This document shows, in pieces, positions 15,160-19,260 of a stretch of DNA of 30,200 bases (position 1 is its first letter; each line of letters opens with the position of its first letter). This DNA is from a virus. The stretch spans positions 1 to 30,200 of the IMG/VR virus record IMGVR_UViG_3300030380_001305; one strand, given 5' to 3'. The position numbers and the translations under genes were made by a program. The notes under the pieces are model-generated. The model ran no database searches, was not told where the DNA came from, and saw nothing but the letters and a program-made list of their open reading frames with translations.

Positions 15160-16323
15160 TTAATGTAAGGCGTATTTACCGAAATTAGGTCTTGACAATA
15201 TAGAGTATGTCGCATAACGACAAGGGTCAATAATATGATTGTTTTTATCTTCAGGTATATTAATTAACCTACCTGATTTATCTTCTTTCCATTTATAGTT
15301 TCTAAATTCTGATATAGCATTTGATGAAGTTGACAATATATGTATCTTATACCTTTTTAATAAATCAATACCTGCATTTATAGAATCTTTGCCTTTAATA
15401 CTTCCAAATATATTATGCCCCATCTTTCTTAATTCACTTATAAGCCTCGGCTCTGCACTATCTGCATAAATAGGTTTGGATGTTAATTGTTGTTCCTTTA
15501 AAAATACATTAATGTCTTGCGTTGTCATTTGCGTTCTATATAAATGCTCTTTGATATACAAATCGAACTTATCAATGTAAACAGATACTAAAGTTGTGGG
15601 GTCGTTAGTATAACCAAAGTCCATACCGTAAGCAACAAGTTGTGCAAACTCAGGTATCTTATTCACCTCGGCATATTTAAATATAGTACTCCTACTAGCT
15701 GCTCTTTCCCCTAATCCATATATCTGCCAATATTGCTCATCAGTATCTCTAAGACGCTCTATTTCCTTTTTAATAGAATCCTCAATAAATGGATTATCAA
15801 GGTATGTAGTTTTATGAAAGACACAATCATCCCTAGGTATGACTTTGTCATATATCCAATGATACTCATCTGAAGGGTTGAAATCAATTATGATTTTATC
15901 TTGAGTTCTAAATATCAGTTGTTGCCAATCTTCAAAGTATAATTCATTAGCTTCATTGATAAATAGTAAATCTCTTTTACGACCTCTAATTTTTTGAGGC
16001 ATATCTAATGATATAAATTCAATCAAGTTACCGTATAGTGCATATTCAGAGTTTGATTTATTATGATTAAGTTCTGTATATATATTATGAGATTGTAGGA
16101 TTTGAACAAAGTCTCTTAATACAGTTGCCCTTAAACTTGGAAATGACTTACGGCATATTGTTATAATTTTATCTTTATTTTCAACACAGTAAGCGAATAT
16201 AATCCATAGAAGTATATTAAATGTTTTTCCTGACCTTGTACCCCCTTGTTCAACTACAATTTTACTATTGCTTTTGACAAGATGTTTATATACAATATTA
16301 GTCTGTATCTTCTGTTTTATCAA
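15160..16323 (-). CDS. terL: Terminase large subunit
   Basis: 387 residues. ATPase domain: Walker A GGTRSGKT (27-34) and Walker B LLFINEANE (119-127). Nuclease domain: GMDFGYTNDPTTL with Asp235, IYADSAEPRLISELRK with Asp288, and HIIDPCRYATY with Asp366, the acidic triad of RNase H-fold terminase nucleases. It should power DNA packaging and cut the concatemer. The frame has an in-frame stop just before a TTG at 16323 and no ATG before the Walker A motif, so TTG is the likely start. It overlaps the small-subunit gene by 26 nt. Confidence 0.95.
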   Translation of the reverse strand: MIKQKIQTNIVYKHLVKSNSKIVVEQGGTRSGKTFNILLWIIFAYCVENKDKIITICRKSFPSLRATVLRDFVQILQSHNIYTELNHNKSNSEYALYGNLIEFISLDMPQKIRGRKRDLLFINEANELYFEDWQQLIFRTQDKIIIDFNPSDEYHWIYDKVIPRDDCVFHKTTYLDNPFIEDSIKKEIERLRDTDEQYWQIYGLGERAASRSTIFKYAEVNKIPEFAQLVAYGMDFGYTNDPTTLVSVYIDKFDLYIKEHLYRTQMTTQDINVFLKEQQLTSKPIYADSAEPRLISELRKMGHNIFGSIKGKDSINAGIDLLKRYKIHILSTSSNAISEFRNYKWKEDKSGRLINIPEDKNNHIIDPCRYATYSILSRPNFGKYALH

Positions 16324-16657
16324 TTATCTCAATTTGAAAGTTATTAGGCATTCCATCTGCACCTGTTATTTCTTGTCTTTCAATATATCCTCGTTTCTTA
16401 CCTTTTGTCTTTAGATAAAATATTGTAGCTGCTGTATTTGCATTACCTATTTGTTCGTGAAGTTGGCTTTCTGCGAAATCAAGAGCAATGTTTTCTATTT
16501 CCCTGACTTTAACTGCAAAGTCCTCATCTTCATTGAGCCATTTATAAAATGTGCTTCTTGGTATATCTGTTTTTCTACAAGCTACTGTAACTACCCCTAA
16601 ACTCTTTTCTAATGCTTTGAGCATTGATTCCTTTTTTATGTGTCTACTTTTGTCCAT
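16298..16657 (-). CDS. terS: Terminase small subunit
   Basis: 119 residues from ATG 16657, immediately after the dioxygenase stop codon. An upstream TTG start at 16669 is possible but less likely. A helix-turn-helix near the N-terminus (GVVTVACRKTDIPRSTFYKWLNEDEDF) is followed by the typical helical segment EIENIALDFAESQLHEQI and TAATIFYLKTKGKKRGY, the standard layout of TerS proteins that recognise packaging sites. Located directly upstream of terL, as usual. Confidence 0.9.
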   Translation of the reverse strand: MDKSRHIKKESMLKALEKSLGVVTVACRKTDIPRSTFYKWLNEDEDFAVKVREIENIALDFAESQLHEQIGNANTAATIFYLKTKGKKRGYIERQEITGADGMPNNFQIEIIDKTEDTD

Positions 16658-16658
16658 A

Positions 16659-17459
16659 TTATTTATCAAATCCAGATAGTGGATAGAAAATCAAACTATT
16701 CCTATACGCTTCTTCGTTATGTTTTATTATTTTGGTTACTCCGTGTATATTATACCAAGCAGGATATACTAAAATACTATTGTTAGCCTGTTCAAAGGTA
16801 TGATTAAAATCAGGAACACAAAGAGCACCACCCTCAGTATCTTTTCTTTTAGTTAATATCACATTTACAGTATTCTTAAGATTACCTCTATCTTGATGAA
16901 AGGGTGCAGCAATATTAAAGTTTGATATACTGCTCGTGAACAAGTTTCCAAATCTATATTTTGGTAATGTCGTTTCTTCTATTAATTTTTTTTGTGATTC
17001 ATACTGTTCAGGCATATATTGTTTTATAAGTTTCTCGCTTTCTAAACAAGATAGTAACATTGCTTTTATAAATGTCTTTGCTTTTTTATTAGTATGAACT
17101 GCCGATACAGAGTTGTAAGGTCTTCTAAGATGTGGTTTCGCTAATACGCCACCTAATATAGTTGACATCTGAACTGTATTCCTAGCTTTCGCCTCAGCCC
17201 TGCTTATACCGTATTTTTTTTGCATTGTATATACATCAGACCTTTCTAGTAATGACTTAGGAACATTCTTACTTAAAAACTCTTTGTTGGCTATTGAAAT
17301 ATATTGTTTTAATTTATCAGGCAAGTCATTTAAATAGAAACCTATTATCTTACCTTCAAACTCTAGTAAGCAACTTTCAGTTACAGTAGGTGGAACAAAC
17401 TCACATCTTGAGCCAATCTTTTTATCGTGTTCTTGTTTTTGTAGTTTTAATGTTTTCAT
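16659..17459 (-). CDS. TET/JBP-family 2-oxoglutarate/Fe(II) DNA dioxygenase
   Basis: 266 residues. The C-terminal half carries a double-stranded beta-helix signature: SNFNIAAPFHQDRGNLK with iron ligands His188 and Asp190, GGALCVPDF (210-218), YPAWYNIHGV with His239, and YRNSLIFYPL with Arg253 as the 2-oxoglutarate anchor. The order and spacing closely follow the HxD...H...R of JBP1 as I remember it (189, 191, 239, 255). Family members oxidise the methyl group of 5-methylcytosine or thymine in DNA. The neighbours support DNA modification: a glycosyltransferase is coupled upstream by ATGA, then a ParB-like gene. The ~160-residue N-terminal region has no recognisable domain. A generic 2OG oxygenase cannot be excluded. 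Confidence 0.78.
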   Translation of the reverse strand: MKTLKLQKQEHDKKIGSRCEFVPPTVTESCLLEFEGKIIGFYLNDLPDKLKQYISIANKEFLSKNVPKSLLERSDVYTMQKKYGISRAEAKARNTVQMSTILGGVLAKPHLRRPYNSVSAVHTNKKAKTFIKAMLLSCLESEKLIKQYMPEQYESQKKLIEETTLPKYRFGNLFTSSISNFNIAAPFHQDRGNLKNTVNVILTKRKDTEGGALCVPDFNHTFEQANNSILVYPAWYNIHGVTKIIKHNEEAYRNSLIFYPLSGFDK

Positions 17460-18184
17460 CTTATAATTTTATTCATACTTTTTGCAAAATTTTTATAATC
17501 AATTCTTACATCTGTTTTTTTGTTGTTTGTATATAATAAAGCATAGGGGTGCCATTTCTTAGTTAACTTGATAGCCCAATCATAATCTTTTTTGATAGCA
17601 TATTTATCGTGAAGACCACCTTTATTACTTCCAACTGTCGGTGTACTAAAACCTAATTTAAGAAACTTAACAACGCCTGAACCTTGCTTTATTGTTTTCA
17701 TAACAAAATCTTTATCTTCTTTTGTATCATTATCATAATCCCAATTTATTTTATCTATATTCATTAACACACAGGCTTCAACTGATGCTTTGTTTATTAC
17801 ATAATTTTTTTTTGCAGTCCATATAAATTGTTTATTATTAATCCCAAATAATTCAAAAGGTAATTTTTTTGCTTTACTTAAAATATCAATCCAAATTTCT
17901 GCTCCTCTTTTTATATTTTTATTTCCTTTATATTCATAAAAAGATATAATGTCATCATCACACATCAATATCCATTTATGTTTATTATTTTTTGCATACT
18001 GTAACATAAAATTCCTAACATAAGATATGCCTTGATTATCTTTCAATATGTTTATTTTATTAGGCACTTTGTATTGTTCAAATTCTTGTGGCTCAATAAA
18101 ATGTTTAAACTCTATTTGTTGTTTTTCAAAGAGTTTATATGTTTTAGTTTTTATTCTATTTTTTGTTGGTATAAAACAAATCAT
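17456..18184 (-). CDS. GT-A glycosyltransferase, TET-associated type (TAGT-like)
   Basis: 242 residues. A short N-terminal strand (MICFIPTKNR) leads to GISYVRNFMLQYA (52-64) and WILMCDDDIISF (71-82), where Asp76-78 form the metal/nucleotide-sugar DxD motif. Later EDKDFVMKTI (156-165) supplies acidic residues, and FSTPTVGSNKGGL (179-191) resembles the acceptor-side loop. This order is what I know of the TET-associated glycosyltransferases, which add sugars to hydroxymethylated bases of phage DNA. Coupling by ATGA to both the ParB-like gene and the TET/JBP gene strengthens the call. Sugar donor and acceptor base are not deducible. Confidence 0.75.
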   Translation of the reverse strand: MICFIPTKNRIKTKTYKLFEKQQIEFKHFIEPQEFEQYKVPNKINILKDNQGISYVRNFMLQYAKNNKHKWILMCDDDIISFYEYKGNKNIKRGAEIWIDILSKAKKLPFELFGINNKQFIWTAKKNYVINKASVEACVLMNIDKINWDYDNDTKEDKDFVMKTIKQGSGVVKFLKLGFSTPTVGSNKGGLHDKYAIKKDYDWAIKLTKKWHPYALLYTNNKKTDVRIDYKNFAKSMNKIIR

Positions 18185-18750
18185 TTTTTATAAGACTTCA
18201 ATGCTTTATAAAACAAGTCTGATAAGTTTACCCCATCACTTTTTAATTTATCATACAATTTTTTTATTGGCTCAAAATCTTTAGCTGGATATTCTAATAT
18301 GATTGACTTTTTTGTTTGGTCATACATACTTTCTATCTCATCTTCTAAATCAATCTCATCAAGAACACTATAATCAATTGCATCTTCAGGCTGCCAGACA
18401 TCAATACCCCAATCTTTTAATTCTTTAGTATCCCATCCGTTAGCTAATATATCCCAATCCCACTCACCGAATCCTACATTATCTTTTATTACAAATTGTT
18501 CCATTTGTTTTTTTGTGAGGTTTTCAGCTTTTATTATCCAGACTTCTTTCAAGCCTATTTGTTGACAAGCCTTGTATCTCATATTCCCTCCTAGTATTCC
18601 CATCTCGCTATTCACAACGATTGGTCTCAATTTTAACATCTCAGGAAATTCTTTTATACTATTAACTAATTTCTTAAATTTGTTTTCTTTTATTGTTCTA
18701 GGATTTACAGGGTTTGCAAATATTTTATTTATTTTAACTTTCTCTATCAT
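18181..18750 (-). CDS. ParB/sulfiredoxin-fold protein, modification-associated
   Basis: 189 residues. N-terminal ParB-like domain: NPVNPRTIKENKFKKLVNSI (13-32), LRPIVVN (41-47), ILGGNMRYKACQQIG (52-66). It is followed by NVGFGEWDWDILANGWD (91-107), a linker I associate with phage ParB-methyltransferase fusions. Here the methyltransferase domain is absent and the protein ends in a ~45-residue alpha/beta segment (SIILEYPAKDFEPIKKLYDK). First gene of the hypermodification-terminase transcript, with TACGTTATATA just before its ATG. ParB domains of this kind may load modifying enzymes on DNA or act as nucleases; which applies here is unknown. Confidence 0.8.
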   Translation of the reverse strand: MIEKVKINKIFANPVNPRTIKENKFKKLVNSIKEFPEMLKLRPIVVNSEMGILGGNMRYKACQQIGLKEVWIIKAENLTKKQMEQFVIKDNVGFGEWDWDILANGWDTKELKDWGIDVWQPEDAIDYSVLDEIDLEDEIESMYDQTKKSIILEYPAKDFEPIKKLYDKLKSDGVNLSDLFYKALKSYKK

Positions 18751-18753
18751 AAC

Positions 18754-18764
18754 TATATAACGTA
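18754..18764 (-). promoter_or_regulatory. Late motif TACGTTATATA upstream of the ParB-TAGT-TET operon
   Basis: A perfect copy ending 3-4 nt before ATG 18750. It occupies the 15-nt gap between the DnaA-like gene and the ParB-like gene and marks the point where DNA-modification and packaging genes begin. Confidence 0.6.
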
Positions 18765-18765
18765 T

Positions 18766-19260
18766 TTAATTTAACTCTTTTTTCCATTCTAATGATTTTT
18801 GCCACAATTTTAGTTTCAGCCCTAACTCATTATGTAATGATTCAGGAACATCTCTAATAATTTTATACATTGGATGATTAAATTTGTTTTTTAATTCAGC
18901 GTTTTTATTTTCTAGGTTTGTTACTTTGTTTTCTAAGTAATGAACTCTATCAATTTTATCGTAACATAAATCAGATTTAAAAGTAAAGATGTTTTCTATC
19001 TCTATTAACTTAGGATTATGTTGACAATAGTATGCGTAGTTGTTGCTTGAATATAAAACAGTTGAATGGTCGCTTGTTTTTCCATTCTTAATATGTATAT
19101 CTGCTATATGAATCCACCTCATATTTAATTTGTTTCTTAATAAATGATTAAACAGTGAACGTACTTCTATGTATTTTCTTTGTCTGCTATTTTTAAAAAC
19201 ATCAAGACCTGATAATTCTTTTATTTTATTTGCTATTTCTATTGGTGTTAAGTTTTCCAT
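18766..19260 (-). CDS. DnaA domain IV-like DNA-binding protein
   Basis: 164 residues. Residues ~24-75 carry NSRQRKYIEVRSLFNHLLR and, after a short helix, KTSDHSTVLYSS. The R..Y..VR..f..L spacing plus DHSTVL corresponds to the DnaA C-terminal DNA-binding domain (signature normally DHTTV). No AAA+ ATPase domain is present. The C-terminal half has a short coiled coil (VHYLENKVTNLENKNAELKN) that may dimerise it. A phage origin-binding or host-replication adaptor role is plausible. It sits beside exonuclease and nuclease genes. Confidence 0.65.
   Translation of the reverse strand: MENLTPIEIANKIKELSGLDVFKNSRQRKYIEVRSLFNHLLRNKLNMRWIHIADIHIKNGKTSDHSTVLYSSNNYAYYCQHNPKLIEIENIFTFKSDLCYDKIDRVHYLENKVTNLENKNAELKNKFNHPMYKIIRDVPESLHNELGLKLKLWQKSLEWKKELN

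Follow-up and report, generated by a model that had tools for sequence, protein, structure and literature searches.

The gene that lies between ParB and TET in a small marine phage is exchanged gene for gene among its close relatives, and the slot that holds it, beside ParB and before the terminase small subunit gene (TerS), is a hotspot for modification genes. As far as we have checked, both observations are new: in the limited literature that we searched, we found no description of a gene-for-gene exchange of decorators or of a ParB-anchored slot. In the phage analysed here, the slot holds a TAGT glycosyltransferase (GT), and the cassette of ParB, GT and TET/JBP dioxygenase is probably a post-replicative DNA base-hypermodification system with an exchangeable decorating step. 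The cassette itself is of a known kind, because the corresponding block of Gordonia phage CaiB has been published and TAGT and Tet_JBP are already named Pfam families.

In the mechanism that we propose, ParB would bring the modifying enzymes to the phage DNA, and the TET/JBP enzyme would hydroxylate the 5-methyl group of a DNA pyrimidine, most likely thymine, to give hmU. The TAGT enzyme would then move a sugar onto the hydroxymethyl group, generating a base-J-like nucleotide, and the adjacent terminase would package the modified DNA, which would resist host nucleases, presumably as a defence. Weighing against this mechanism are the TAGT genes that occur without TET, the cassettes of Nonlabens phage P12024L type that occur without a recognised ParB, and the fact that a host could supply 5-methylcytosine (5mC).

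The cassette and its enzymes

The DNA analysed ("the window") comprises bases 1-30200 of a 32,404-base IMG/VR record (IMGVR_UViG_3300030380_001305). On its minus strand, the order of transcription is ParB, GT and dioxygenase, followed by TerS and TerL (Table 1). An earlier note on this DNA had described three open reading frames joined by ATGA overlaps at 16659-18750 and an operon shared with terminase. The coordinates and both junctions (ParB/GT and GT/dioxygenase) agree with the former, and the latter holds as well, as the cassette abuts TerS-TerL. TerS most likely starts at an ATG one base past the TET stop (119 aa, compare locus L183), not at an upstream TTG, and TET and TerS therefore abut with no overlap. 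The ParB-GT-TET order is repeated in dozens of viral contigs, far beyond chance.

Table 1. Genes of the cassette and its borders in the window.
Feature	Coordinates	Strand	Evidence and remarks
TerL	15160..16323	-	PF04466, 84.4 bits; PF17288, 83 bits
TerS, right border of slot	16298..16657	-	phrog_309, terminase small subunit; homology restarts at TerS in L183
TET/JBP 2OG-Fe(II) dioxygenase, 266 aa	16659..17459	-	PF12851, 42 bits (cut-off 34.9); pLDDT 92.6
TAGT glycosyltransferase, 242 aa, GT-A fold, swappable decorating gene	17456..18184	-	PF20691, 53.4 bits (cut-off 27.5); pLDDT 92.3; replaced in relatives
ParB_N-domain protein, 189 aa	18181..18750	-	PF02195, 35.4 bits (cut-off 26.3)
u164, small protein, left border of slot	18766..19260	-	weak DnaA-C-like match; upstream neighbour of ParB, kept in relatives

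Between the u164 stop and the start of the cassette lies a conserved TACGTTATATA stretch (window 18750-18770, L183 ~660-680, L167 ~1548-1570). It is retained even in empty slots and is possibly the promoter of the block. As for the host, the sole cultured phages with a match to the portal protein are Nonlabens phages (38% identity), and a flavobacterial host is plausible.

The profile and structure checks that the earlier note had proposed support its three family assignments: all three proteins pass the cut-offs of their Pfam families, the ParB-fold protein through ParB_N, and the dioxygenase and the GT are also recognised by predicted structure. In the dioxygenase, the iron triad H188, D190 and H239 and the 2OG-binding R253, already picked out in that note, are invariant in 17 diverse homologues and again in 38. 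Its AlphaFold (AF2) model, built from an alignment of 38 sequences, has the TET-type double-stranded beta-helix fold. In a Foldseek search of the PDB, the top 26 matches are all TET2, CcTet, NgTet1 or CMD1 (E from 1.8e-11), and those that follow are mostly AlkB-type nucleic-acid demethylases. Because TET-type and then AlkB-type proteins lead the matches, the modelled fold argues against a protein or small-molecule hydroxylase, the family placement that the earlier note had set against its own reading. Sequence searches were less productive. A search of the PDB with a single TET or a single TAGT protein gave nothing useful, and TET2 was recovered once a profile was used as the query for TET. 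A single TET protein found no cellular relatives among genome contigs, and queries with the S-CBWM1 and Klevey TETs yielded no contrast set. In PADLOC, the dioxygenase had only a weak 2OG hit and the GT none, and ParB was matched to a type II methyltransferase.

In the GT, R57 (of the GISYVRN motif) and D77 (of the DDD motif) are invariant among 27 homologues, and N58 is nearly so. The AF2 model matched GT-A enzymes weakly, and the protein combines the GT-A fold and the acidic metal motif expected of a TAGT, in agreement with the GT-A glycosyltransferase first proposed.

It is very improbable that the dioxygenase and the GT modify RNA, protein or a surface glycan and that their linkage to ParB and terminase is incidental. 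GT-A enzymes are generic by fold, and the PHROG of the dioxygenase, phrog_6059, is labelled "queuine tRNA-ribosyltransferase", both of which would suit such a target. However, the fold of the dioxygenase is specific to TET/JBP enzymes, the label is at odds with the protein's own Tet_JBP match, and the slot otherwise houses DNA modifiers (Mom, a ParB-fused N6/N4 methyltransferase, ADDT and kinase). It should be mentioned that the TET/JBP proteins of MED4-184, MED4-117 and MementoMori carry the same label in RefSeq; in both PHROGs and RefSeq it is apparently a misannotation.

Exchange of the gene between ParB and TET

Across the close relatives of the window TET (78 IMG/VR loci), ParB and TET are constant and the gene between them varies. 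The slot contains TAGTs of several subtypes, in some cases preceded by a second GT that carries a Gly_transf_sug domain (PF04488). In other loci, the TAGT is replaced by a P-loop kinase (L029, L030, L033, L035, L038-L040 and L127) or by an FkbM methyltransferase (L065, L125 and Prochlorococcus phage MED4-184). MED4-184/P-HS2 resembles the window in its ParB-X-TET order, followed by two genes in the TerS/TerL position, and in a TET that is 43% identical, but its X is an FkbM-type methyltransferase and not a glycosyltransferase.

The boundaries of the exchange are sharp. The DNA of L034, with a TAGT, and that of L038, with a kinase, are 91.0% identical over the 980 bases that end with ParB and 92.3% identical from the TET start codon onward, with nothing alignable between. 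The same kind of swap is repeated independently in L115 and L127. One GT can also be exchanged for another: identity between the window and L007 reaches 86.6% on one flank and 91.9% on the other, whereas the GTs between them share only 25% amino acid identity, against a shuffled baseline of 21%. A tree built from 72 TETs implies at least 15 changes in the class of decorator, when the minimum possible is 5. Such an exchange among near-identical relatives can be likened to changing the lock on the DNA.

By hhalign (97.9%, E 5.7e-13), the swapped-in kinase is homologous to the PF18751 kinases that cultured ParB-TET phages encode, and its single members score 25.2 bits, just under the Pfam cut-off of 27; by this homology, it is a likely relative of the 5hmdU DNA kinases. 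In Rhodococcus phage Tonitrus, the PF18751 kinase adjoins an amino acid:DNA transferase (PF18724). The pairing of near-identical TETs with a GT in some loci and a kinase in others suggests one hydroxymethyl base as the common target of the two decorators. The pairs L034/L038 and L115/L127, with near-identical TETs and different decorators, are in effect natural allelic swaps, in which acceptance of a shared base by GT and kinase is directly testable.

In the published block of CaiB (DR cluster), genes for ParB, TET/JBP, a pyrophosphorylase and a kinase overlap by 4 bp and precede the terminase (PMC9302106), and similar blocks occur in Tonitrus and in Arthrobacter phage Kharcho. All three resemble the window in the pairing of ParB with TET/JBP, the tight overlaps and the place before the terminase, but they use transferase and kinase decorators instead of a TAGT, and the TETs of Tonitrus and Kharcho are merely 21-25% identical to the window TET.

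Thymine or 5-methylcytosine as the substrate

The earlier note had left the oxidised base as either 5mC or thymine, and the following comparison narrows this choice toward thymine, short of proof. A C5-methyltransferase (PF00145) was found in none of 51 records with the window type of TET (the window's record and 50 relatives, most of them contig fragments) and in none of 8 complete cultured phages with TET cassettes. As far as we have checked, this lack of a C5-methyltransferase beside the window-type TET is a new observation. The method works, as shown by positive results in a second TET lineage (L130 type), where 5 of 26 records encode the enzyme, in L236 right after TET and in the other four at another place in the record. 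The difference is suggestive (one-sided Fisher p ~0.003, calculated by hand), although this p value overstates it because the records share ancestry and many of them are fragmentary. The absence of the methyltransferase favours thymine over the 5mC route without proving it. In addition, no thymidylate-synthase-type hydroxymethylase (PF00303), the enzyme expected of a T4-type system, was found above the cut-off in 42 records, the window's included, and the base is therefore probably oxidised in DNA and not incorporated as a hydroxymethyl nucleotide. It has been reported that the 5hmdU DNA kinases and the transferases that follow them act on thymine-derived hmdU (PMC6449724). From these sequence comparisons, we regard thymine as the rather better candidate for the substrate of the window TET.

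Alternatively, the TET may oxidise 5mC made by a host C5-methyltransferase, or by one encoded beyond the sequenced part, to give hmC and then glycosyl-hmC, a route that we consider possible but somewhat doubtful. The L130-type records, with the gene of L236 directly behind TET, indicate that 5mC is a plausible substrate for a ParB-TET pair, and the top fold matches of the dioxygenase are mostly 5mC enzymes. To judge by the title of Burke et al. 2021 (cited in PMC12730594), a phage TET takes part in C5-cytosine hypermodification; as far as that title goes, the system is like the window in applying TET and tailoring enzymes to phage DNA and unlike it in its C5-methyltransferase, which the 51 records and 8 cultured genomes above lack. 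The CpG content lends this route no support: the odds ratio of the window is 0.55, a strong depletion, but it is matched in sisters that lack TET, down to ~0.1-0.2. CpG depletion was accordingly rejected as a mark of cytosine modification, and the odds ratio is also equal (0.93) in P12024L and its sister P12024S. N193, the base-contacting position in NgTet1/TET2, is uninformative on cytosine versus thymine.

With thymine as the favoured substrate, the window can be compared with the kinetoplastid base J system (JBP1/2 and JGT), in which a TET/JBP dioxygenase is likewise followed by a glycosyltransferase. The latter is eukaryotic and has no ParB, and its thymine substrate is proven, whereas that of the window is a probable one. 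As of 2019, glucosylated 5hmdU was unreported in any phage genome (PMC6449724). If the window cassette makes glucosylated hmU, it would tie the origin of base J to the armour of phage DNA.

In T6-like phages, the TAGT is believed to attach the second glucose and not the first (PMC13390438), which weighs against the proposed mechanism. TAGT genes also follow ParB in records in which no Tet_JBP was detected (L117 at 995-1843, L124, L153, L147 and L170), and L111, L128 and L159 carry two TAGTs each, again with no Tet_JBP detected. The Tet_JBP search of these TAGT-only records gave no match in 28 records, controls included, and the same family search was positive in the window's record.

The slot beside ParB in sister phages

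Through relatives of the window terminase, we found sister phages without TET, in which the slot beside the ParB core holds Mom, a ParB-N6/N4 methyltransferase fusion, PAPS-reductase/DUF3440, an ABC/GNAT protein or GTs. A Mom-family gene (PF25680, 165.7 bits in L129) lies directly behind the ParB core in L129 (1464-2126) and also in L141 (3755). PAPS-reductase/DUF3440 is accompanied by a second ParB-like protein in nine loci (L155, L157, L162, L173, L175, L176, L179, L181 and L182); these pairs are IbrA/IbrB-like, with a weak DndC match, and this slot type is possibly a sulfur-based DNA modification. In L161, L174, L177 and L178, a small AdoMet decarboxylase (PF02675 in L174) comes after the ParB-methyltransferase fusion, and one reading is that decarboxylated SAM would be an aminopropyl donor to DNA. 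The site can also be empty or reduced. In L183, the ParB-TAGT-TET block is gone and both flanks and the first ParB codons remain, and dozens of L130-type loci have a minimal ParB-TET-TerS-TerL arrangement with no decorating gene. A ParB-anchored slot predicts where further phage DNA modifications are to be sought, namely beside ParB and before TerS.

The core of ParB (about residues 1-118) is conserved across all slot chemistries, and its C-terminal tail is variable, a pattern consistent with a shared core for targeting and a tail matched to each partner. Where 2.5 kb or more of sequence precedes the terminase (150 loci), ParB is present in 137, and the remaining 13 are all of P12024L type; the loci were picked via TET or TerL, and this census of ParB is therefore not unbiased. 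It is unlikely that ParB serves a separate function as a nuclease or in partition, such as attacking host DNA, and stands in the slot by linkage alone. ParB-like domains do often carry a nuclease annotation, but, leaving aside the P12024L lineage, every one of the 137 loci assessed keeps the core irrespective of its chemistry, ParB is fused to a methyltransferase in some loci, and in L183 it was lost jointly with the enzymes.

Targeting is the role that we propose for ParB, and we tentatively extend it: these phages may encode a base-J-like pathway, in which thymine is oxidised and glycosylated in DNA and the ParB core is the common targeting subunit, with GT, kinase, O-methyltransferase, Mom, methyltransferase and thio-chemistry effectors exchanged one gene for another against host restriction.

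ParB as a universally obligatory partner was ruled out, since the P12024L lineage has no recognised ParB. Nonlabens phage P12024L (35.7 kb) is like the window in that its TET adjoins a TAGT and its portal is related (38%), but it has an N6/N4 methyltransferase, its TET is 19% identical, and its cassette is not directly before TerL. In its sister P12024S, an ATPase/GNAT gene occupies this slot. The two genomes are near-syntenic and share a host, with TET-TAGT-methyltransferase at 16409-18674 of P12024L (JQ823123, L082) and ATPase/GNAT at 16313-17452 of P12024S (JQ823122, L089), and the pair is thus a culturable natural experiment.

Finally, reading by eye in the slot upstream of TerS in L149-L151, we saw a GTP-cyclohydrolase-I-like gene with an N-terminal extension and no ParB, which may point to deazaguanine chemistry.
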